From Leptotrichia sp. oral taxon 212 (GTDB lineage: Bacteria; Fusobacteriota; Fusobacteriia; Fusobacteriales; Leptotrichiaceae): DNA of 64,000 nt. Shown here in pieces: positions 11,751-61,976 of the stretch. Within the stretch, counting starts at the first letter, position 1. The number at the start of each line of letters is the position of its first letter. The notes beneath the pieces are model-generated. The model saw nothing but the letters and a program-made list of their open reading frames with translations. It was not told the origin of the DNA and made no database searches. The DNA lies in the NCBI RefSeq assembly GCF_001274535.1, contig NZ_CP012410.1, positions 682,001-746,000 of the forward strand. Direction: 5' to 3'. The position numbers were made by a program, and so were the translations under genes.

Positions 11751-11770
11751 ACAGAATATTAAAACAGTAA

Positions 11771-11817
11771 AGGAGGGTAGAGATAAATATTCATATATTT
11801 ATCTTATAGAAAAAATG
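11771..11817 (+). promoter_or_regulatory. Hairpin-spaced ribosome-binding site of the Nif3-like gene
   Basis: The SD AGGAGG (11771-11776) is 38 nt from ATG 11815, far beyond normal spacing. Between them is a perfect 10-bp hairpin: AGATAAATAT (11781-11790), loop TCAT, ATATTTATCT (11795-11804). Excluding the hairpin leaves 14 nt. No nearer SD is visible. One of five such sites in the window. Confidence 0.7.
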
Positions 11818-12624
11818 AGGCTAAAAGATATAGCAGGAGAATTACAGACAATTTATAATCCGAAACTGGCAGAAGACTGGGATAATGTAGGACTTCTTGT
11901 TGGTAATGAAAATACTGACATAAATACAATACTTTTATGTCTTGATATTACCGAAGAAGTTGTAGACAGGGCAGTAAAAGAAAATGCAGATTTAATAATT
12001 TCACATCATCCTTTTATATTCAGTGGATTAAAAAAAATCACAAGTGAAACTGTACATGGCAGAAAAATACTGAAGCTTATTGAGAATAAAATAGCGGTGT
12101 ATTCAGGACATACAAATGTAGATTTTGGAATAAACGGTTTAAATGATTATATATTTTATAAGCTCGATTTAAATGGAAAAGTGGAAATATACAATGAATT
12201 TGAATATGAAGACTATAATTTTATAAAGCATAGAAATGAACATGTAAAAGGTGGAACAGTCAGAATAAAGATTCTAGATCATGAAATAGAATTAACAAAT
12301 TTGATTAGAATAATAAAGGAGAAACTTGGACTTGATTTTGTAAGATATGTCGGAGAAAACAGAAAAATTCGTAGAATAGGTCTCGTTACAGGTGGAGGAA
12401 GTTCTTTTATGCACAGTGTAAAAAAAAATATAGATGTTTTTTTAACAGGAGATCTGAGGTACCATGAAGCACTTGATGTATTGGAAGAAGGCGGTATGCT
12501 TATAGACATAGGACATTATGAAAGTGAATATCTGTTTGCTGAATTAATGGAACTTCAGGTTTCACAGTTTTTCAAAGGTAAAATAATAAAACATTTTGGA
12601 GAACCTGTGTTTAAATTAGGCTAA
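11815..12624 (+). CDS. Nif3-like dinuclear metal-centre protein (YqfO/YbgI family)
   Basis: 269 residues, matching the short form of the family. AEDWDNVGLLVGN near residue 20, the metal-binding IISHHPFIFSGLKKI (His64, His65), YSGHTNVDF and the C-terminal IGHYESEYLF supply the usual histidine/glutamate ligands of a di-metal site. Family members form hexameric toroids. They are often labelled GTP cyclohydrolase I type 2, but the cellular role is not settled. ATG 11815 was chosen because the protein aligns from MRLKDIAGEL; the only SD is separated from it by a hairpin. It follows the rpoD and sigma-like genes, probably in the same operon. Confidence 0.88.
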   Translation: MRLKDIAGELQTIYNPKLAEDWDNVGLLVGNENTDINTILLCLDITEEVVDRAVKENADLIISHHPFIFSGLKKITSETVHGRKILKLIENKIAVYSGHTNVDFGINGLNDYIFYKLDLNGKVEIYNEFEYEDYNFIKHRNEHVKGGTVRIKILDHEIELTNLIRIIKEKLGLDFVRYVGENRKIRRIGLVTGGGSSFMHSVKKNIDVFLTGDLRYHEALDVLEEGGMLIDIGHYESEYLFAELMELQVSQFFKGKIIKHFGEPVFKLG

Positions 12625-12916: not shown

Positions 12917-13258
12917 AAAAGGTTTCGGAGTCAATCGCCTGAAAATTTCAGGAGGAAAGTCCGGACTTCGCAGGGCAAGGGAGACAGTTAACGACTGTTG
13001 GAAGAAATTCTAAGGAAAGTGCCACAGAAAATATACCGCCTGAAATTCAGGTAAGGGTGAAATGGTAGTGTAAGAGACTACCGGTGATTTAAGAAATTAA
13101 ATCAGCCAGGTAAACCCCTCCCGGAGCAAGAATAAGTAGAAAGTGGTTAAGAGGCTGCCCGTCTTCACTTAATGGGTAATTCGCTAAAACCGGTAGGTAA
13201 CTGCCTGTTTAGATAAATGATTGACAAATACAGAATCCGGCTTATGCCGAAACCTTTT
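12917..13258 (+). ncRNA. rnpB: RNase P RNA (bacterial class A-like)
   Basis: About 342 nt. The 5' strand AAAGGTTTCGG (12918-12928) pairs with CCGAAACCTTT (13247-13257), forming the closing P1 helix. Inside, the universally conserved GAGGAAAGTCCGGAC with CGCAGGG follows, then later core pieces: a CCACAGAAA-like segment, AAGGGTGAAA, and the CCTCCCGGAGCAAG P15 loop region whose GG-CC pairing binds the 3' CCA of tRNA. It is the catalytic RNA that matures tRNA 5' ends. The mature ends are set by P1 pairing and may be off by a few nt. An extended -10 lies just upstream and an intrinsic terminator about 65 nt downstream. Confidence 0.95.
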
Positions 13259-13322
13259 AAATAAAAACTGTTAAAAAGTTATGGAAGATATTACGGAACT
13301 GATATAGCATTAATTTGATAGA

Positions 13323-29112: not shown

Positions 29113-29122
29113 AAAATTAGAG

Positions 29123-29177
29123 AAAGGAGTAAATATATCGTAATTTATTTATACGATATATTTTGAAAAGAAAAATG
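29123..29177 (+). promoter_or_regulatory. Hairpin-spaced ribosome-binding site of the rlmB-like gene
   Basis: SD AAAGGAG (29123-29129) is 45 nt from ATG 29175. A perfect 12-bp hairpin fills the gap: AAATATATCGTA (29131-29142), loop of 9 nt, TACGATATATTT (29152-29163). Excluding it leaves 12 nt. The alternative TTG 29163 overlaps the hairpin and is less likely as the start. Confidence 0.7.
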
Positions 29178-29873
29178 GAAAAAATTATAGGAATAAATCC
29201 GGTTCTTGAGATTCTCAGATCGGATAAGAATATAGAAAAAATAGAAGTATATAAAGGAATAAAGAAAGATACAATAAAAGAAATATTAAATCTGGCAAGT
29301 AAAAGAAACATAAAAATATTTTATACAGACAGAAGAATTGAAAACTCCCAGGGAGTTACAGCTCTGGTGTCAGAATTTGATTATTATATGGATTTGTCTG
29401 ATTTTTTAGGAAAAGTACTGGCAAAGGACAAATCGATAGTAGTAATTTTGGATCAGATACAGGATCCAAGAAATTTTGGAGCAATAATAAGAAGTGCTGA
29501 ATGTTTTGGAGCTGATGGAATCGTAATTCAGGACAGGAACAATGTAAAGGTTACAGAAACTGTTGTAAAGTCATCTACTGGAGCAATAGAGCATGTTGAC
29601 ATTGTAAAAGTTACGAATATTTCAGATACAATTGACAGATTTAAAAAGTATGGATATAGAGTCTACGGAGCGGAAGCTGACGGAGAAAATTTCTATTATG
29701 AGGAGGACTATCCTGACAAAGTCTGCCTTGTTCTTGGAAGTGAAGGAAACGGAATGAGAAAGAAAGTTAAGGACCACTGTGACAAAATAGTAAAGATACA
29801 CCTTAAAGGTCATATAAATTCCCTGAATGTATCAGTTGCAGGTGGAATAATACTGGCTGAAATGGCGAAGTAG
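29175..29873 (+). CDS. SpoU-family RNA 2'-O-ribose methyltransferase (RlmB/TrmH type)
   Basis: 232 residues from ATG 29175; MEKIIGINPVLEIL aligns with family N-termini, and the in-frame TTG 12 nt upstream lies at the hairpin edge. The three SPOUT motifs are present: VVILDQIQDPRNFGAIIRSA, CLVLGSEGNGM and INSLNVSVAGGIILAEM. It methylates a ribose 2'-OH of rRNA or tRNA using SAM. The short N-terminal substrate-binding domain suits RlmB (23S G2251), but the target is not proven. The ribosome-binding site is unusual (see 29123-29177). Confidence 0.9.
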   Translation: MEKIIGINPVLEILRSDKNIEKIEVYKGIKKDTIKEILNLASKRNIKIFYTDRRIENSQGVTALVSEFDYYMDLSDFLGKVLAKDKSIVVILDQIQDPRNFGAIIRSAECFGADGIVIQDRNNVKVTETVVKSSTGAIEHVDIVKVTNISDTIDRFKKYGYRVYGAEADGENFYYEEDYPDKVCLVLGSEGNGMRKKVKDHCDKIVKIHLKGHINSLNVSVAGGIILAEMAK

Positions 29874-29948: not shown

Positions 29949-30011
29949 GTATAGAAAATATACATATTTACTGAAAAATATAAAAATTAAGAGACAGTAA
30001 TATATAAAGTG

Positions 30012-30048
30012 AAAGGAGAAAAGACTTTTAAAGTCGTGAATACAAATG
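30012..30048 (+). promoter_or_regulatory. Hairpin-spaced ribosome-binding site of leuS
   Basis: SD AAAGGAG (30012-30018) is 27 nt from ATG 30046. A short hairpin GACTT-TTA-AAGTC (30023-30035) lies between. Excluding it leaves 14 nt. Confidence 0.55.
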
Positions 30049-32733
30049 GTAAAAGAATATAAACCGGAACAGATTGAAAAAAAGTGGCAGGAAAAATGGC
30101 AGGAAAAGAATGTTTTTAAAAGTGAAAATAAAGTAGAGGGAAAGCAGAACTACTACACTCTTGAAATGTTTGCTTATCCTTCAGGAAAGCTGCACGTGGG
30201 GCATTTAAGAAACTACGCTATAGGAGATGCCATTGCAAGATATAAGAAAATGAAGGGGTTTAATGTATTGCATCCATTTGGATGGGACAGTTTCGGACTT
30301 CCCGCTGAAAATGCCGCAATTGATAATGGGGCACATCCTGGGCAATGGACAAAAGCTAATATTGACAATATGAGAAGACAGCTTAAATTAATGGGGCTTT
30401 CATATGACTGGGACAGGGAAATAAGTACATACACTCCTGAATATTATAAATGGAATCAGCTGTTCTTCATAGAGATGTATAAAAAAGGACTTGTTTACAA
30501 GAAAAGATCTTATGTAAACTGGTGTCCTGACTGCAATACAGTTCTAGCAAATGAACAGGTTGAAGATGGAAAATGCTGGAGACACAGTAAAACAGATGTA
30601 ATTCAGAAAGAACTTTCACAATGGTATCTGAAAATAACTGACTATGCAGAAGAACTGCTTCAGGGACATGAAGAACTGAAGGGACACTGGCCGGATAAAG
30701 TTCTTGCAATGCAGAAAAACTGGATTGGAAAATCTATAGGAAGTGAAATAAATTTTGTACTTGATTACAAATTTGATGGCAATAGCAGAGATAAAGAAAG
30801 TAATCTGAACATAGGAAATGATGGAGAAGTTATAATTCCTGTATTTACAACGAGGGCAGATACCCTGTTCGGTGTAACTTATGCAGTAATTGCACCTGAA
30901 CATCCACTTGTTGAAGAAATTGTCTTAAAAGAAAATCCTTCATTAAAAGATGCTGTCGATAAAATGATAAACGAGGACAAAATAAACCGTACAGCAGAAG
31001 ACAAGGAAAAAGAAGGAATGTTTACAGGACTTTATGTTATAAACCCTGTAAATAATGAAAAAGTACCTTTATGGATAGGAAACTATGTATTAATGGATTA
31101 CGGAACAGGGGCAGTTATGGCGGTTCCTGCACATGATGAAAGAGACTTTTTCTTTGCAAAGAAATATAACCTTCCTGTAAGAATAGTCATAAATCCTGTT
31201 GATAAGGACGGAAATCCTGAAAAAATAGTTGTCGAAGAAATGGAAGGGGCATATACTTTAAATGGAATTCTGGTTAATTCAGATGAATTTGACGGAATGA
31301 AAAATACAGAAGCAAAGGTAAAAATAACTGAAAAACTTGAAAAAGAAGGAAAAGGAAAGAAAACTGTAAATTACAGACTTCACGACTGGCTAATAAGCAG
31401 ACAGAGATACTGGGGAACTCCTATTCCTGTAATTTATGATGAAGATGGAAATATTTACTTGGAAGAAAAGGAAAATTTACCTGTAAAATTGCCAACTGAT
31501 ATTGAATTTAGCGGGAAAGGGAATCCGCTTGAAACTTCTGAGGAATTTAAAAATGTGATTCTGCCAAACGGTAAAAAAGGTAGAAGAGAGACTGATACAA
31601 TGGATACTTTCGTTGATTCTTCATGGTACTATCTGAGATATCTGGATTCACATAATACTGAAAAACCTTTTGAAAAGGAAAATGCAGACAGCTGGACTCC
31701 TGTAGATCAATATATTGGTGGAATAGAACATGCGGTAATGCACCTTCTTTATGCGAGATTCTTCCATAAAGCATTGAGAGATATGGGTCTTGTTGCAACA
31801 AATGAGCCGTTTAAGAGACTGCTTACACAGGGAATGGTTTTAGGGCCTTCATATTATTCACAGAATGAAAGAAAGTTCTATTTTCCTAAAGACGTTGAAA
31901 TAAAAGATACAAAAGCATTCTCTAAATCAACAGGAGAAGAACTTACTGTAAAAATTGAAAAAATGAGTAAGTCTAAAAATAATGGAGTAGATCCTGAGGA
32001 AATTGTAAAAGAATATGGAGCAGATCCAGCAAGAGTCTTTACATTATTTGCTGCACCGCCTGAAAAGGAACTTGAGTGGAATGTGAACGGCCTGGCAGGA
32101 GCTTACAGATTTATAAACAGACTATTCCTGATTATATCAGATTCATTTGAATTTACTGATAAGAATGCCGGAAAAGAAAATAATTATGGAATTGATTTAA
32201 GTAAAAGAAGTGAGAAAGATGAAGAAATACAGAAAAAATTACATCAGACAGTTAAGAAAGTTACTGAAAGCATAGAGGATGACTTCCACTTTAATACTGC
32301 AATTGCAGCTGTTATGGAACTTCTGAATGACATGACTACTTACAAGCAGGAAGTAATTGATAAAAATGATGTTTCTACAGAATCAAAAAAAATATGGAAG
32401 GAAGTACTGGACAAGGTTATACTTCTAATTGCACCTTTCGCTCCTCACATTGCTGATGAACTGTGGGAAATTATAGGAAATACAACGTTTACTTTTGAGG
32501 AGAAATGGCCTACATTTGAGGAAGAACTGACAAAGGAACATAAAATGAACCTTGTTGTTCAGATAAATGGAAAAATCCGTGAGACAATACCGGCAAAAAT
32601 TGGACTTACGAAAGAAGAATATGAAAAATTGGCTTTTGATTCGGAAAAGATAAAGAAAGCTGTAGAAGGAAAAGAAATTGTAAAAGTAATTGTTGTGCCA
32701 AATAAACTGGTAAATATTGTGGTAAAAGGATAA
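30046..32733 (+). CDS. leuS: Leucyl-tRNA synthetase
   Basis: 895 residues, typical for the bacterial class-Ia enzyme. The HIGH signature is in FAYPSGKLHVGHLRNY and the KMSKS loop in KMSKSKNNGVDPEEIVKEYG. The CP1 editing domain is recognisable from TTRADTLFGVTYAVIAPEHP and GTGAVMAVPAHDERD. A small zinc-like knot (NWCPDCNTVL) sits in the N-terminal part. Own promoter at 29920 and an SD separated from the ATG by a hairpin. No defects. Confidence 0.98.
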   Translation: MVKEYKPEQIEKKWQEKWQEKNVFKSENKVEGKQNYYTLEMFAYPSGKLHVGHLRNYAIGDAIARYKKMKGFNVLHPFGWDSFGLPAENAAIDNGAHPGQWTKANIDNMRRQLKLMGLSYDWDREISTYTPEYYKWNQLFFIEMYKKGLVYKKRSYVNWCPDCNTVLANEQVEDGKCWRHSKTDVIQKELSQWYLKITDYAEELLQGHEELKGHWPDKVLAMQKNWIGKSIGSEINFVLDYKFDGNSRDKESNLNIGNDGEVIIPVFTTRADTLFGVTYAVIAPEHPLVEEIVLKENPSLKDAVDKMINEDKINRTAEDKEKEGMFTGLYVINPVNNEKVPLWIGNYVLMDYGTGAVMAVPAHDERDFFFAKKYNLPVRIVINPVDKDGNPEKIVVEEMEGAYTLNGILVNSDEFDGMKNTEAKVKITEKLEKEGKGKKTVNYRLHDWLISRQRYWGTPIPVIYDEDGNIYLEEKENLPVKLPTDIEFSGKGNPLETSEEFKNVILPNGKKGRRETDTMDTFVDSSWYYLRYLDSHNTEKPFEKENADSWTPVDQYIGGIEHAVMHLLYARFFHKALRDMGLVATNEPFKRLLTQGMVLGPSYYSQNERKFYFPKDVEIKDTKAFSKSTGEELTVKIEKMSKSKNNGVDPEEIVKEYGADPARVFTLFAAPPEKELEWNVNGLAGAYRFINRLFLIISDSFEFTDKNAGKENNYGIDLSKRSEKDEEIQKKLHQTVKKVTESIEDDFHFNTAIAAVMELLNDMTTYKQEVIDKNDVSTESKKIWKEVLDKVILLIAPFAPHIADELWEIIGNTTFTFEEKWPTFEEELTKEHKMNLVVQINGKIRETIPAKIGLTKEEYEKLAFDSEKIKKAVEGKEIVKVIVVPNKLVNIVVKG

Positions 32734-43521: not shown

Positions 43522-43768
43522 TTTGAAATGTAGATAGATTAAAATTACAGGCTTACAAGAAATAAAATGACACGGAGTATTATAATCTATCAGATAAAAA
43601 ATAAAAAAATTCAACGTTGTAAAATCTTAAAATAAGGAGTATAATAAAAAACAGATATATAAATGAAATACAAAAAATAGCTGGTATACCCCAATTTGAA
43701 ATAGAACTGGCTTAAATATTTAATATAAGATAATTGATATAACATATATTAATATAAAAATACGAAGG
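43522..43768. other. AT-rich intergenic region
   Basis: About 250 nt without a credible ORF. It presumably carries the promoter of the peptidase gene, but no single good -35/-10 pair stands out. Confidence 0.4.
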
Positions 43769-43806
43769 AAAGGAGAGTATGAGAAATCATACATGGTGGA
43801 AAAATG
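43769..43806 (+). promoter_or_regulatory. Hairpin-spaced ribosome-binding site of the Xaa-Pro peptidase gene
   Basis: SD AAAGGAG (43769-43775) is 28 nt from ATG 43804. The hairpin GTATGA-GAAA-TCATAC (43777-43792), with a GNRA tetraloop, lies between; excluding it leaves 12 nt. An overlapping 13-codon ORF (ATG 43779 to TGA 43820, product MRNHTWWKNGKKN) could also use this SD, but its spacer would be only 3 nt. Confidence 0.65.
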
Positions 43807-44886
43807 GAAAAAAGAACTGAAAAATTGACAAAATTATTGGATGAATTGAATTTGGACGCATTATTTCTTACGGATTTGTATAATCTGAGATATTTTGCGG
43901 GATTCACAGGAACGACAGGAGTAGGTCTTGCCACTAGAAAAGGAAATTTTTTCTATTCGGATTTTAGATATAGAAGTCAGGCTGAGGCTCAAGTTACTAA
44001 GATGGGATTTGAATTTGTGGAAGTTTCGAGAGGCTCTTTAAAATTTGTAGGTGAGCATGCTGAAAAACTGGGATTGAAAAAAATAGGGTTTGAAGATCAC
44101 AACGTGACATTTTCATCGTATCAGACATTAAAAGAAGTATTTAAAGCTGAACTTGTTCCCATAGGAGATAAAATAACGTATGTAAGAATGATAAAATCTG
44201 ATGAAGAAATTGGATTTATCAAAAAAGCAATAGAAATAAGTGATGTTGCGTTCAGTGAAGCATTAAAGATAATAAAAGAAGGTGTTTCTGAAAAGGAAAT
44301 AGCCGGATACATGGAATATATTCAAAGAAAATTAGGTGCAGAAGACAGGTCGTTTGAAACAATTCTGGCAAGTGGTGTAAGATCTGCAATGCCTCATGGA
44401 GTTGCATCGGATAAGAAAATCCAGAAGGAAGAATTTATTACAATGGATTTTGGAGCGTATTATAATGGATATGTTTCAGATATGACAAGAACAGTTTATT
44501 ATGGAAACAACATTACTGAAAAACATAAGGAAATATATAATCTTGTCCTTGAAGCACAGATTCTTGGAATTAATACTATAAAAGAGGGAATAATGTCAGA
44601 TGATGTTGATAAAGTTGTAAGAAATTTCCTGACTGAAAAAGGCTATGGAAAAGAATTCGGACATGGACTTGGACATGGAATAGGACTGGAAATTCATGAA
44701 TTGCCATACTTATCTTCAGTTACTCATATAGAATTAAAAGAAAATATGGTTGTCACTTCAGAACCTGGACTTTATTTTGACGGATGGGGTGGAGTAAGAA
44801 TTGAAGATGATGTTGTAGTCAAAAAAGATGGAAGGGAAGTTCTGAATAAAAGTAACAAGGAACTGATAATAATAGAAGCAAAATAG
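43804..44886 (+). CDS. Xaa-Pro aminopeptidase (M24 family)
   Basis: 360 residues, the short YpdF/PepQ-like form. N-terminal creatinase-like domain (LFLTDLYNLRYFAGFTGTTG) and a pita-bread catalytic domain with the five metal ligands: Asp in FITMDFGAYYNGYVSDMTR, His in GHGLGHGIGLEIHELP, Glu in VTSEPGLYF and GGVRIEDDVVV. It removes N-terminal residues next to proline. It ends before an intrinsic terminator. The ribosome-binding site carries an inserted hairpin. Confidence 0.93.
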   Translation: MEKRTEKLTKLLDELNLDALFLTDLYNLRYFAGFTGTTGVGLATRKGNFFYSDFRYRSQAEAQVTKMGFEFVEVSRGSLKFVGEHAEKLGLKKIGFEDHNVTFSSYQTLKEVFKAELVPIGDKITYVRMIKSDEEIGFIKKAIEISDVAFSEALKIIKEGVSEKEIAGYMEYIQRKLGAEDRSFETILASGVRSAMPHGVASDKKIQKEEFITMDFGAYYNGYVSDMTRTVYYGNNITEKHKEIYNLVLEAQILGINTIKEGIMSDDVDKVVRNFLTEKGYGKEFGHGLGHGIGLEIHELPYLSSVTHIELKENMVVTSEPGLYFDGWGGVRIEDDVVVKKDGREVLNKSNKELIIIEAK

Positions 44887-52916: not shown

Positions 52917-54236
52917 ATGAAAAAATATAAGATAGTTCATTATATAAACCAATTCTTTGCCGGTATAGGTGGAGAAGAAAAAGCAGATTACAAACCAGAG
53001 CTTAGAGAAGGAAATGTTGGACCTGGATTAGCTCTTGATACTGCACTTGGAGACGATTATGAAGTAGTTGCAACAATAATATGTGGGGATAACTACTTTG
53101 GAGAAAATCTCGAAGCTGCTACAGATACAGTTCTTGAAATGGTAAAAAAATATAATCCTGATGTATTTGTTGCCGGACCGGCATTTAATGCAGGACGTTA
53201 TGGAGTTGCCTGTGGAACTGTATGTAAAGCTGTAGAAGAAAGACTGGGTATTCCTTCAGTTACTGCTGAGTATGAAGAAAATCCTGGAGTAGACATGTTC
53301 AGAAAAGATGTTATCATCGTTAAAACTGGAAATTCAGCTGCAGATATGAGAAAAGCAGTTAAAAATATTGCTTCTATTGTTAAAAAACTTGCAACTGGTG
53401 AAGAAATATTAGGACCAGCTATAGAAGGTTACCATGAAAGAGGTATAAGGGTTAACTACTTTGCAGAAGAAAGAGCTTCTGAAAGAGCTATCCAGATGAT
53501 GATTAAAAAATTAAAAGGTGAACCTTTTGAAACAGATCTGCCTATGCCAAAATTTGACAGAGTAGATCCTGCTGAACCGATAAAAGATATTAAGAAAGCT
53601 AAAATAGCTATAGTTACTTCAGGAGGAATAGTTCCTCATGGGAACCCTGACCATATAGAATCTTCAAATGCAACAAGATTTGGGGCATATTCTATAGAAG
53701 GTATGGATGAGCTTTCAGCAAAAGACTTTACAACAATTCATGGAGGATATGACCGTCAGTTTGTTATGGAAAATCCTAATCTTGTTGTTCCATTGGACGT
53801 TTTAAGAGAAATGGAAAAAGCTGGGGAATTTGGAGAACTTTATCATACATTCTTTACTACAACAGGTACAGGAACATCAACTGGTTCTGCAGCAAAATTC
53901 GGTACTGAAATAGGACAGAAGCTGATAGATGAACATGTAGATGGAGTAATTCTTGTAAGTACCTGAGGAACTTGTACACGTTGCGGTGCAACTATGGTAA
54001 AAGGAATTGAAAAATATGGTATTCCAGTAGTTCATATGGCTACAGTAGTTCCTATATCATTAACAATAGGAGCAAACAGAATTATCCCAGGAGTAGGTAT
54101 TCCATATCCATTAGGAGATCCTACACAAGGTGAAGTGGATTCTAAAAATATACGTAGAAAAATGGTAAAAAGAGCTCTAAAAGTGTTACAAACACCTGTT
54201 ACTGGACAAACAGTTTTTGAAAAAGATGATTTTTAA
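52917..54236 (+). CDS. grdB: Selenoprotein GrdB of glycine reductase (UGA 53964-53966 = selenocysteine 350)
   Basis: Read through the in-frame TGA the protein has 439 residues. Before the codon: HYINQFFAGIGGEEKADYKP (family N-terminus) and IVTSGGIVPHGNPDHIES. At the codon: VSTU-GTCTRCGATMVK, the UxxCxxC redox motif of the GrdB/GrdF/GrdH family, with the selenocysteine at position 350 as known for glycine reductase. After it: GIPYPLGDPTQGEVDS. A SECIS-like stem-loop follows the UGA. Calling this two ORFs would be wrong: the second half has no SD. SD aaggagg before ATG 52917. It forms protein B with GrdE and needs GrdA, GrdC/GrdD and SelA-D, all outside the window. Confidence 0.95.
53964..53992 (+). 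promoter_or_regulatory. Selenocysteine codon and SECIS-like stem-loop of grdB
   Basis: UGA at 53964-53966; after 13 nt comes GTTGC (53980-53984), loop GGT, GCAAC (53988-53992). Position and size suit a bacterial SECIS that recruits SelB. The same 13-nt hairpin recurs at 56547 and 61729. Confidence 0.8.
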
Positions 54237-57731: not shown

Positions 57732-57777
57732 AAGGGAGACATATGATTGAATAATCAATCATATAAAAAAGAGTATG
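57732..57777 (+). promoter_or_regulatory. Hairpin-spaced ribosome-binding site of the BCCT gene
   Basis: SD AAGGGAG (57732-57738) is 36 nt from ATG 57775. The perfect 10-bp hairpin ATATGATTGA-ATAA-TCAATCATAT (57741-57764) lies between, leaving 12 nt. A three-codon ORF, ATG-ATT-GAA-TAA (57743-57754), sits in the hairpin. Confidence 0.7.
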
Positions 57778-59274
57778 AGTGAAAAAGTAAAAGATAATAC
57801 AGTTTATATAATTTCAGTTTCTATCATAACTCTGGTTGTTTTATGTGGTCTCATATTTCCCAAAGGATTTGAAACATCTGCAAATATTCTGTTAAAAGAA
57901 ATAGTACGTAATTTTGGCTGGTTTTACACGTTAGCAATGACATGTTTTATAGTATTTGCTGTCTGGATAGCTTATTTCAGCAAATATAAAGATATGAAAC
58001 TGGGTCCTGAAGATTCCAAGCCGGAATATAGTAATATTTCATGGTTTGCAATGCTGTTTTCAGCTGGTATGGGAATAGGACTGGTATTTTATGGTATATA
58101 TGAACCACTTTACCATTATGTTAATCCTATTGGATTTGATTCAATGTCAGTAGATGCTGCCAAGTTTGCAATGACAAAGTCATTTCTGCACTGGGGATTA
58201 CATCCATGGGCTAATTACAGTATATTAGGTCTGGGACTTGCTATTATGCAGTTCAGAAGAGGTAAGCCTGGACTAATTAGCAGCCTTTTTATACCTCTGA
58301 TAGGAGAAGAAAAAGCAAGAGGCTCTATAGGTAAGCTGATAGATATACTCGCTATATTTGCAACAGCGGCGGGTATGGCAACTTCTTTAGGTTTAGGTAC
58401 ATATCAGATTAGCAGTGGTCTTAACTATATGTTTAAAATACCTGAAACAACAATTGTTCAAATAATAATAGTAGTAGTTATAACTGTCATTTATACTTGG
58501 ACTGCAGTAACAGGTATTGATAAGGGAATAAAACTTATATCAAATTTGAATATGATTCTTGTAATTGCTTTATTGGCTCTATCAATTATATTTGGACCTA
58601 CAGTTGATATTCTTAATATTTTTGGTGAAAGCACAGGAAATTATTTACAGAGTCTGTTATCAAATACATTTGAAATTGGAGCTTTTAGTAAAACTGACTG
58701 GTATGGAGCCTGGACATTATTTTATTGGGCATGGTGGATAGCATGGGCACCATTTACAGGAACTTTTATAGCGAGAATTTCAAAGGGACGTACTATAAAA
58801 GAATTTATAAGCGGTGTTCTTATCGTGCCGTCAATAGTTTCATTTTTCTGGTTCTCAATATTTGGAGCCATAGATTTCTCAGTGGCTAAGGAAGTCCTGA
58901 TAGAAGCTTCAAAAAATGCTTCGACAGCTTTCTTTATTGTTATTAATAACATAACATTAGGAAATGTGATATCTGTTATAGCAATAGCACTGTTATTTAC
59001 ATTCTTCATTACGTCAGCAAATTCTGCAACATTTGTATTGGGTATGCTGTCACATAATGGAGATCTGAATCCTCCTAACTCTAAAAAGTTAGTATGGGGA
59101 ATTATACAGTCTGCATTGGCATTGTCATTAATGGTAGGTTCTGCAAACGGACTTAAGATGTTACAGACAATATCAATAGTTGCGGCTTTCCCTTTTGCTT
59201 TCATAATGCTGCTTACAATAATATCAGTAATGAAGGCGCTGAAGGAAGAGGAACAGTACAGTCAATTAAAATAA
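57775..59274 (+). CDS. BCCT family betaine/carnitine/choline transporter
   Basis: 499 residues, 12 membrane spans. Family marks: SAGMGIGLVFYGIYEPLYHY in the third span and the aromatic signature WYGAWTLFYWAWWIAWAPF (the betaine-binding box), then FIARISKGRTIKEFI. It imports quaternary ammonium compounds. First gene of module II, 13 nt before grdI, so betaine is the likely substrate. The N-terminus lacks a long regulatory tail. Its ribosome-binding site carries an inserted hairpin. Confidence 0.93.
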   Translation: MSEKVKDNTVYIISVSIITLVVLCGLIFPKGFETSANILLKEIVRNFGWFYTLAMTCFIVFAVWIAYFSKYKDMKLGPEDSKPEYSNISWFAMLFSAGMGIGLVFYGIYEPLYHYVNPIGFDSMSVDAAKFAMTKSFLHWGLHPWANYSILGLGLAIMQFRRGKPGLISSLFIPLIGEEKARGSIGKLIDILAIFATAAGMATSLGLGTYQISSGLNYMFKIPETTIVQIIIVVVITVIYTWTAVTGIDKGIKLISNLNMILVIALLALSIIFGPTVDILNIFGESTGNYLQSLLSNTFEIGAFSKTDWYGAWTLFYWAWWIAWAPFTGTFIARISKGRTIKEFISGVLIVPSIVSFFWFSIFGAIDFSVAKEVLIEASKNASTAFFIVINNITLGNVISVIAIALLFTFFITSANSATFVLGMLSHNGDLNPPNSKKLVWGIIQSALALSLMVGSANGLKMLQTISIVAAFPFAFIMLLTIISVMKALKEEEQYSQLK

Positions 59275-60668: not shown

Positions 60669-61976
60669 ATGAAAAAAGCGATTCATTATATAAACCAGTT
60701 TTTTGGAGGAATAGGTGGAGAAGATAAGGCCGACTTCAAACCTGTTCTAAAAGAAGGAGTTATAGGTCCAGGAATGGCTCTTAACTCATTAATGAAGGAA
60801 GTTGAGATAACTCATACAATTATCTGTGGAGATAATTATATGGGATCTAATAAGGAAGAAGCTGTATCAGAAATTATGGATCTTATAAAAGATCTGAAAT
60901 TTGACTTCTTTATAGCAGGACCTGCATTTCAGGCAGGAAGATACGGTGTCGCATGTGGTAACATATGTGTAGCTGTAAAAGAAAAATATGATATCCCTGT
61001 ATTGACTTCAATGAATGTTGAAAATCCAGGAGTAGAAATGTTTAAAAAACAGTTGCCGATTTTTAAAGGTGGACATTCAGCCGCTTCGATGAAGGATGAT
61101 GCAAAACTTATTGCAAATTATGCTGATAAATTGGCAAAAAATGAAACACTTGATGGAGCAGAAGAAAACGGATACTTCTCAAGAGGAATAAGACATCAGA
61201 TATGGCTTGACTCTAAAGAAAGTGCTGCTAAGCGTGGTGTAGATATGCTAATTAAAAAACTTAATGGAGAAGAGTTTAAAACAGAATTACCTATATCTAA
61301 GAAGGATTTAATACCTGTTGCAACTCCTATAAAAAATTTAAAAGAAGCTAAGATAGCTCTACTTACGACAGGAGGTATCGTACCTGTGGACAACCCTGAC
61401 AGAATACAGTCTGCATCAGCTACAAGATGGGGAAGATATGATATTTCCAAAATGGATAGACTTAAATCAGGAGAATTTAAAACAATCCACGCCGGATTTG
61501 ACCCTGCAGCGGCAGATAATGATCCAAACGTAATAGTGCCACTTGATGTTATGAAAGATTTACAGAAAAAAGGTGTATATGGTAAACTGCATGATTATTT
61601 CTATAGTACTGTTGGTACTGGAACTACTCAGGCAGAAGCATCGAGAATGGGAAAAGAAATGCTTGAATATCTTAAGGCGGATAATGTAGACGGTGTAATA
61701 ATGGTTTCTACCTGAGGAACTTGTACGCGTTGCGGTGCAACGATAGTAAAAGAAATCGAGAAAGAAGGAATACCTATAGTTCAGATGTGTAACTTAGTTC
61801 CTGTTGCTCTTACTGTAGGAGTCAACAAAATAGTTCCAACAATATCGATTCCTTATCCTTTAGGAGATCCTGCTACGCCTAAAGAGGAACAATATGAACT
61901 AAGGGAACATAGAGTTTCAGTAGCATTAGAAGCATTGACAAAAGATGTGGATGGACAAACTGTATTTAAGGTTTAG
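60669..61976 (+). CDS. grdH: Selenoprotein GrdH of betaine reductase (UGA 61713-61715 = selenocysteine 349)
   Basis: 435 residues when the in-frame TGA is read through. N-terminus HYINQFFGGIGGEDKADFKP; at the codon VSTU-GTCTRCGATIVK with the UxxCxxC motif; C-terminus SIPYPLGDPATPKEEQYELR. Same plan as GrdB in module I. SECIS-like stem-loop after the UGA. SD gaggagg before ATG 60669. Expected to form betaine-specific protein B with GrdI; GrdA, GrdC and GrdD must come from elsewhere. Confidence 0.94.
61713..61742 (+). promoter_or_regulatory. Selenocysteine codon and SECIS-like stem-loop of grdH
   Basis: UGA 61713-61715, then 13 nt, then GTTGC (61729-61733), GGT, GCAAC (61737-61741); an outer C-G pair (61728/61742) makes it 6 bp. 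Confidence 0.8.

Follow-up and report, generated by a model that had tools for sequence, protein, structure and literature searches.

RNA thermometers and riboswitches that sequester the Shine-Dalgarno (SD) sequence use structure in the initiation region to hide the SD. The closest described systems to the one reported here come from phage T4, where RNA structure shortens the SD-AUG spacing of genes 38 and 25 (the 26-25 junction) from 22 to 5 nt and from 27 to 11 nt, as outlined in the T4 literature (Nivinskas 1999; Malys and Nivinskas 2009; PMC3014915). By the same outline, mutations that destabilise the structure reduce initiation at genes 38 and 25, and, as far as that account goes, the accommodated site is confined to one phage subgroup, with ordinary sites in the others (PMC3014915). 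In E. coli thrS, a hairpin upstream of the SD (-48 to -14) is described as the operator for ThrRS (Sacerdot 1998; PMC3936740), and a map of inverted repeats in E. coli places none just before start codons (PMC6060812). We found no report of a genome-wide bacterial case in the open-access literature; the only earlier examples of a folded spacer that we found are the two phage T4 genes.

Here we analysed a 64,000-nt stretch of DNA (the window), bases 682001-746000 of a 2.44-Mb genome with a G+C content of 30.7% in its sampled part, in which five genes on the + strand carry a hairpin between a distal SD, read from the sequence, and the start codon. The 16S 3' tail is GGATCACCTCCTTTCT, and the full SD is therefore AGAAAGGAGGTGATCC. 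A Nif3-like protein gene (11815-12624; TIGR00486) has its distal SD, AAAGGAGG, which matches this complement of the tail, at 11769-11776, followed by a 10-bp hairpin (AGATAAATAT/ATATTTATCT, 4-nt loop; 11781-11804; MFE -9.3, p≤0.001) to which RNAfold adds a G-U pair (11780-11805). The 23S rRNA 2'-O-methyltransferase gene rlmB (29175-29873; TIGR00186) is preceded by AGAAAGGAG at 29121-29129 and by a 12-bp hairpin seen in the sequence and in the shuffle test (AAATATATCGTA/TACGATATATTT, 9-nt loop; 29131-29163). The weakest of the five hairpins, 5 bp of GACTT/AAGTC with a 3-nt loop (30023-30035; MFE -3.1, p=0.11), lies between GAAAGGAG at 30011-30018 and leuS (30046-32733). The same SD, GAAAGGAG, at 43768-43775 stands ahead of a 6-bp hairpin with a GAAA loop (GTATGA/TCATAC; 43777-43792; MFE -6.2, p=0.001) and of a gene assigned to the M24 family of Xaa-Pro peptidases (PepQ-like; 43804-44886). 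Finally, a gene assigned to the BCCT family of glycine-betaine transporters (57775-59274) has a mismatched SD, AAGGGAG, at 57732-57738 and a 10-bp hairpin (ATATGATTGA/TCAATCATAT, 4-nt loop) at 57741-57764 (MFE -9.5, p=0.001).

In sequence and coordinates these sites are exactly those picked out by an earlier, sequence-only reading of the window; its stem lengths (10, 12, 5, 6 and 10 bp for Nif3, rlmB, leuS, M24 peptidase and BCCT), its unpaired distances (14, 12, 14, 12 and 12 nt in the same order) and its placing of the SD 27-45 nt from the start codon were all reproduced. Its statement that the only strong SD is distal holds at all five genes, with a weak proximal GGTG to be added at the M24 peptidase, a weak GTGA at leuS and the mismatch in the SD of BCCT. 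Starts elsewhere are disfavoured, since alignments of the orthologous proteins begin with residue 1 at these positions and gene finding returns the same ATGs. The BCCT transporter sits within a betaine/sarcosine reductase region, where two selenoprotein B genes, for a GrdF-like sarcosine reductase (52917-54236) and a GrdH-like betaine reductase (60669 to beyond 61715), both appear to end at an in-frame UGA with an Rfam SECIS_4 element directly after it (53967-54004 and 61716-61753). Besides these two elements, Rfam 15 at gathering score matches only the class A RNase P RNA (12919-13260) in the window, and no family at the five sites.

Site by site, 1000 shuffles were scored for an equal or lower MFE and then for that plus the same geometry. 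The hairpins of Nif3 (p of 0.001 and <0.001, respectively), rlmB (0.002 and 0.001), BCCT (0.001 and <0.001) and the M24 peptidase (0.001 and <0.001) are each significant alone, and that of leuS is weak (0.112 and 0.037). Scanning 1.65 Mb of the source genome (1456 genes called, with starts from our own caller) yielded 57 orphan-SD genes, that is, genes that lack a proximal SD and have, in the non-coding DNA 12-75 nt upstream, a strong one. By an untuned statistic (MFE ≤ -6 with 5-15 exterior nt), 23 hairpins were observed against 5.4±2.0 in dinucleotide shuffles (maximum 13 of 300). By a strict geometry (a single stem that begins no more than 5 nt from the SD and leaves 5-13 nt between itself and the start codon), 21 of the 57 genes carry one, against 1.98±1.34 in shuffled spacers (maximum 7 of 400) and 1.77±1.23 expected from real intergenic DNA, taken as equally long DNA upstream of ordinary SDs (maximum 5 of 300); because this geometry was picked after the first list had been seen, the untuned comparison is the cleaner figure. 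By either count the frequency lies far above that of shuffled leaders, the comparison on which the sequence-only reading had staked its proposal, and its remark that ordinary genes lack such hairpins also stands: control genes with a proximal SD show no folding tendency (mean z 0.01, 0 of 71 at p<0.01). Where a gene has no proximal SD, an orphan distal GAAAGGAG at a distance of 14-60 nt is followed by a stem in 13 of 14 cases, the strongest single figure of the analysis, and an orphan distal AAAGGAG at 14-60 nt in 16 of 19, leuS with its weaker stem being among the three exceptions. The other genome scanned at length, 0.8 Mb from another genus (G015), gave 8 against 2.35±1.26 by the untuned test and 6 against 2.6 with a simpler start caller, a smaller excess than in the source genome. 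By extrapolation, some 25-40 chromosomal genes would have a folded spacer.

From gene to gene the stem letters change and the two distances that flank the stem stay fixed, which bears out the constant geometry with unrelated stem sequences that had been described in the window. Every site has its hairpin on the 3' side of the SD, and the median gap is 1 nt between SD core and stem and 9 nt between stem and start codon. The unpaired total, or effective spacing, has a median of 12 nt, as compared with 8 nt at ordinary AGGAG sites and 11 nt at T4 gene 25. Hairpin span ranges from 13 to ~80 nt; in the long-loop cases, those of a lipoate-protein ligase (573976) and an M18 aminopeptidase (641246), loops of tens of nucleotides are closed by a long stem, with flanking distances still as in the short hairpins. 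The stems are AT-rich and are followed by A-rich spacers with no T-run. Hairpin genes also have SDs that are longer on the 5' side, GAAAGGAG being found in 13 of 22 as opposed to 35 of 766 ordinary genes (p about 1e-11 in Fisher's test, somewhat inflated by selection of the hit set for a strong core). Folding in context predicts that the SD or AUG is partly occluded in a few cases (e.g., 239415 and 792734).

The decisive case for pairing that is kept while sequence is free is adk. The arrangement is found in eight species of five genera (the source genome, G015, G006, G010, G009, G011, G017 and G021), and in all eight leaders a stem directly follows GAAAGGAG, with 7-12 effective nucleotides to the ATG. 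The stem sequences have been replaced wholesale, the arms with their complements being TGCACGAT/ATCGTGTA, TACACGA/TCGTGTA, CGATATTTAA, CGGTATTTAA, AGTATGTTT, TATATGACATTT and GTATGATTT; scored over their outer 8 pairs, the 7 distinct sequences are paired in 55 of 56 cells, with variation on both sides of every one of the 8 pairs. MAFFT misplaces the arms of these leaders because the loop lengths differ; the arms were therefore paired by hand, and a script counted the pairs. As hand-pairing favours structure by construction, we added per-species shuffles and an arm permutation, in which 2 of 5040 reassignments of the 3' arms pair as well. In G002 and in all outgroup genera, adk has an ordinary proximal SD and no such stem. 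In G002, Nif3 and rpsA are each split into two frames, and that genome may therefore contain frameshift errors.

The expectation that stems would be kept in orthologues by compensatory change is borne out at adk and BCCT; at Nif3, leuS, gyrA and valS the stem is not conserved. Pairing of the BCCT stem is kept in three species including that of the source genome (L185 of G006 and L186 of G003 being the others), with exchanges to a U-G pair and between A-U and G-C, and with a loop that goes from 4 nt to about 20 nt or more; the high identity in the distant G003 suggests transfer of this gene. At rlmB, one orthologue (L113, G006) has an unrelated hairpin in the same place and two others (L115, L116) have none, and the corresponding place in an orthologue of the M24 peptidase (L164, G009) is taken by a different hairpin, one of 14 bp. 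A 720-aa gene at 935293 and the transaldolase gene have stems in both the source genome and G015, again of different sequence; a provisional naming of the former as nrdD was dropped, there being no NCBIfam or Pfam match. The Nif3 hairpin is absent from orthologues, whose SD-ATG spacers are 6-10 nt with a proximal SD, and the leader in the source genome looks like a lineage-specific insertion of ~28 nt between the GGAG and TTATAG of an ordinary spacer. The relatives examined showed no stem at leuS, gyrA or valS. Relatives that lack the hairpin carry a proximal SD, and, given the ordinary proximal SDs of relatives at several loci, Nif3, leuS and gyrA among them, the trait is gained and lost locus by locus.

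Most hairpin genes are housekeeping genes, including adk, gyrA, valS, asnS, leuS, rlmB, rlmN, aspartate kinase, rpiB, ychF and others. For ychF (1065721), a reading of the leader as upstream coding sequence was unsupported by all-frame translation, and the gene stays a hit. Aminoacyl-tRNA synthetases recur (valS at 483560, leuS at 712046 and asnS at 1055525 in the source genome, and an ArgRS-like gene, identified by eye, at 607414 in G015); perhaps they are enriched among the genes with hairpin ribosome-binding sites. In G015 (L191-L230) we also observed an element, GCGGGAGTATGAGGGYRRCAATGARCCCTCATG, at 133992, 273016, 725919 and 729095, where it precedes genes that by eye are LuxS-like, ProRS-like and, in two cases, adhesin-like.

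The trait is confined to a single supported clade, that of Leptotrichia sensu lato. In a LeuS tree the source genome groups with Leptotrichia and near genera, and the hairpin-bearing genera form one clade with 99/99 support. Outgroups have ordinary SDs, and the same orphan-SD search found no excess in them, with 0 of 1 in the same order and 1 of 19 in other phyla; this search used simpler start calling, with which the source genome gives 16 of 27. As a side observation, ribosomal protein S1, the product of rpsA (G000:C1:2174745-2176478), is ~607-619 aa long in the source genome, G006, G010, G011 and G001, and ~515-550 aa in most outgroups by profile search; the long proteins have an overlapping second profile match, possibly an extra S1 repeat.

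The presence of the hairpins, their excess over chance, geometry, covariation and clade restriction were computed directly, and the last four support the proposal of the sequence-only reading that folding of the RNA would join SD and AUG. We consider it very probable that the hairpins belong to folded ('accommodated' or split) ribosome-binding sites, in which the stem would be looped out and SD and AUG joined constitutively. A strong SD, usually 5'-extended to (A)GAAAGGAG, stands first; the stem-loop comes 0-5 nt later, and the start codon a further 5-13 nt on. The stem would fold in the mRNA and be looped out upon 30S binding, such that the anti-SD and the P site would meet an effective spacer of ~12 nt (range about 6-14) rather than one of 28-90; the ribosome would initiate with the stem folded, and unfolding would lower expression. 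The constraint would then fall on pairing and on the two flanking distances, leaving stem sequence and loop length free. Most likely, short inverted repeats were inserted into ordinary SD-AUG spacers, after which selection on translation would keep the pairing. Such a model predicts what is observed, namely stems that covary, flanks of fixed length, a loop free to vary, and an exchange between hairpin with distal SD and no hairpin with proximal SD; T4 genes 38 and 25 are its experimental precedents. Counted against it are the median effective spacing of 12 nt, longer than the ordinary 8 nt, the partial occlusion of SD or AUG, the unconserved stems of Nif3, leuS, gyrA and valS, and the smaller excess in G015.

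Other explanations account for parts of these observations. Chance in an AT-rich genome is compatible with leuS taken by itself (p=0.11), but it is contradicted by the shuffles, the real intergenic controls, the covariation and the clade restriction; the pattern is not chance, and we regard such an origin as exceedingly improbable. Perfect inverted repeats are common throughout intergenic DNA here, and it is conceivable that they act at the level of DNA or transcript, as operators, terminators, cruciforms or mobile palindromes, with their position being incidental. However, stem sequences vary from gene to gene and from species to species, the flanking distances are fixed and nearly every orphan distal SD carries a stem, and the AT-rich stems lack the U-run of an intrinsic terminator, making a role of this kind very unlikely. 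Some spacers contain an ATG, GTG or TTG a few nucleotides past the SD, for example at BCCT (ATG ATT GAA TAA) and at the M24 peptidase, as would be expected if the distal SD served a short leader frame and the main gene were reached by reinitiation or coupling. Yet many strong cases (Nif3, rlmB, gyrA, rpiB and the adk of the source genome) have no start at a suitable distance, the frames are tiny and unrelated, and perfect, covarying stems would be left unexplained; leader translation is accordingly a highly doubtful account.

It is also unlikely, although less easily set aside, that the hairpins are regulatory elements, be it for a protein, a small RNA, an RNase or as a cold or heat switch, with the joined SD and AUG as the ON state. 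The targets do include aminoacyl-tRNA synthetases and housekeeping enzymes, and autoregulation is known elsewhere for some of these; adk conserves the structure, and the hairpin-split site of E. coli thrS is described as serving autoregulation (PMC3936740). Nevertheless, neither the different genes nor the adk orthologues share an evident loop or stem sequence, hence no common ligand is apparent, no Rfam family is found at the five window sites, and presence is patchy among close relatives. Of the two roles suggested by the sequence-only reading, protein control is unsupported, there being no evident sequence common to the stems or loops, and temperature control is improbable, since at 65 °C the window stems other than that of leuS are predicted in silico to be at least 83% formed. 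The SD lies outside the stem, unlike that of an RNA thermometer, with no melting predicted in the physiological range, and at no site is the hairpin upstream of the SD as in a thrS-type operator. Stems are predicted to be formed at all growth temperatures, which favours a constitutive cis-acting spacer over a switch.

It is reasonably likely that the hairpins make up a clade-wide class of ribosome-binding site, independent of sequence and dependent on structure, at dozens of housekeeping genes. Stems inserted in SD-AUG spacers would be folded out by or before the 30S, kept by compensatory evolution and lost again, possibly with help from clade-specific ribosome features, e.g., an altered S1. 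Gene finders, ribosome-binding-site calculators and textbooks treat SD-AUG spacing as a linear distance. Dozens of covarying natural examples would make the capacity of the 30S for folded RNA between SD and P site, and the cost of carrying it, directly testable; furthermore, the longer SDs suggest that loop-out cost is traded against anti-SD pairing to an extent that could be measured. The paired orthologues with and without the hairpin would be a natural series, and start-site annotation and expression models could be corrected in this clade.

Set beside known systems, these sites share with thermometers and riboswitches a cis-acting RNA structure in the initiation region, and differ in having the SD outside a stem that is predicted to help. 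As in the E. coli map (PMC6060812), inverted repeats were surveyed genome-wide around starts, but here a subset of genes has repeats before the start codon, with the SD moved outside. The likeness to thrS, as described, is that the ribosome accommodates a folded hairpin within its binding region; here, however, the hairpin is between SD and AUG, with no evident operator. With T4 genes 25 and 38 the sites share, on the published outline, an extended SD-AUG gap that intervening RNA structure would shorten, and the good SD is distal only (19 orphan AAAGGAG genes, at 14-60 nt) with the stem wholly between SD and AUG; pairing is kept in relatives at adk and BCCT and not at Nif3 and leuS. The T4 arrangement concerns two phage genes, whereas here it would extend, by extrapolation, to ~25-40 chromosomal genes, and, unlike in T4, the stems turn over completely among species and genes.
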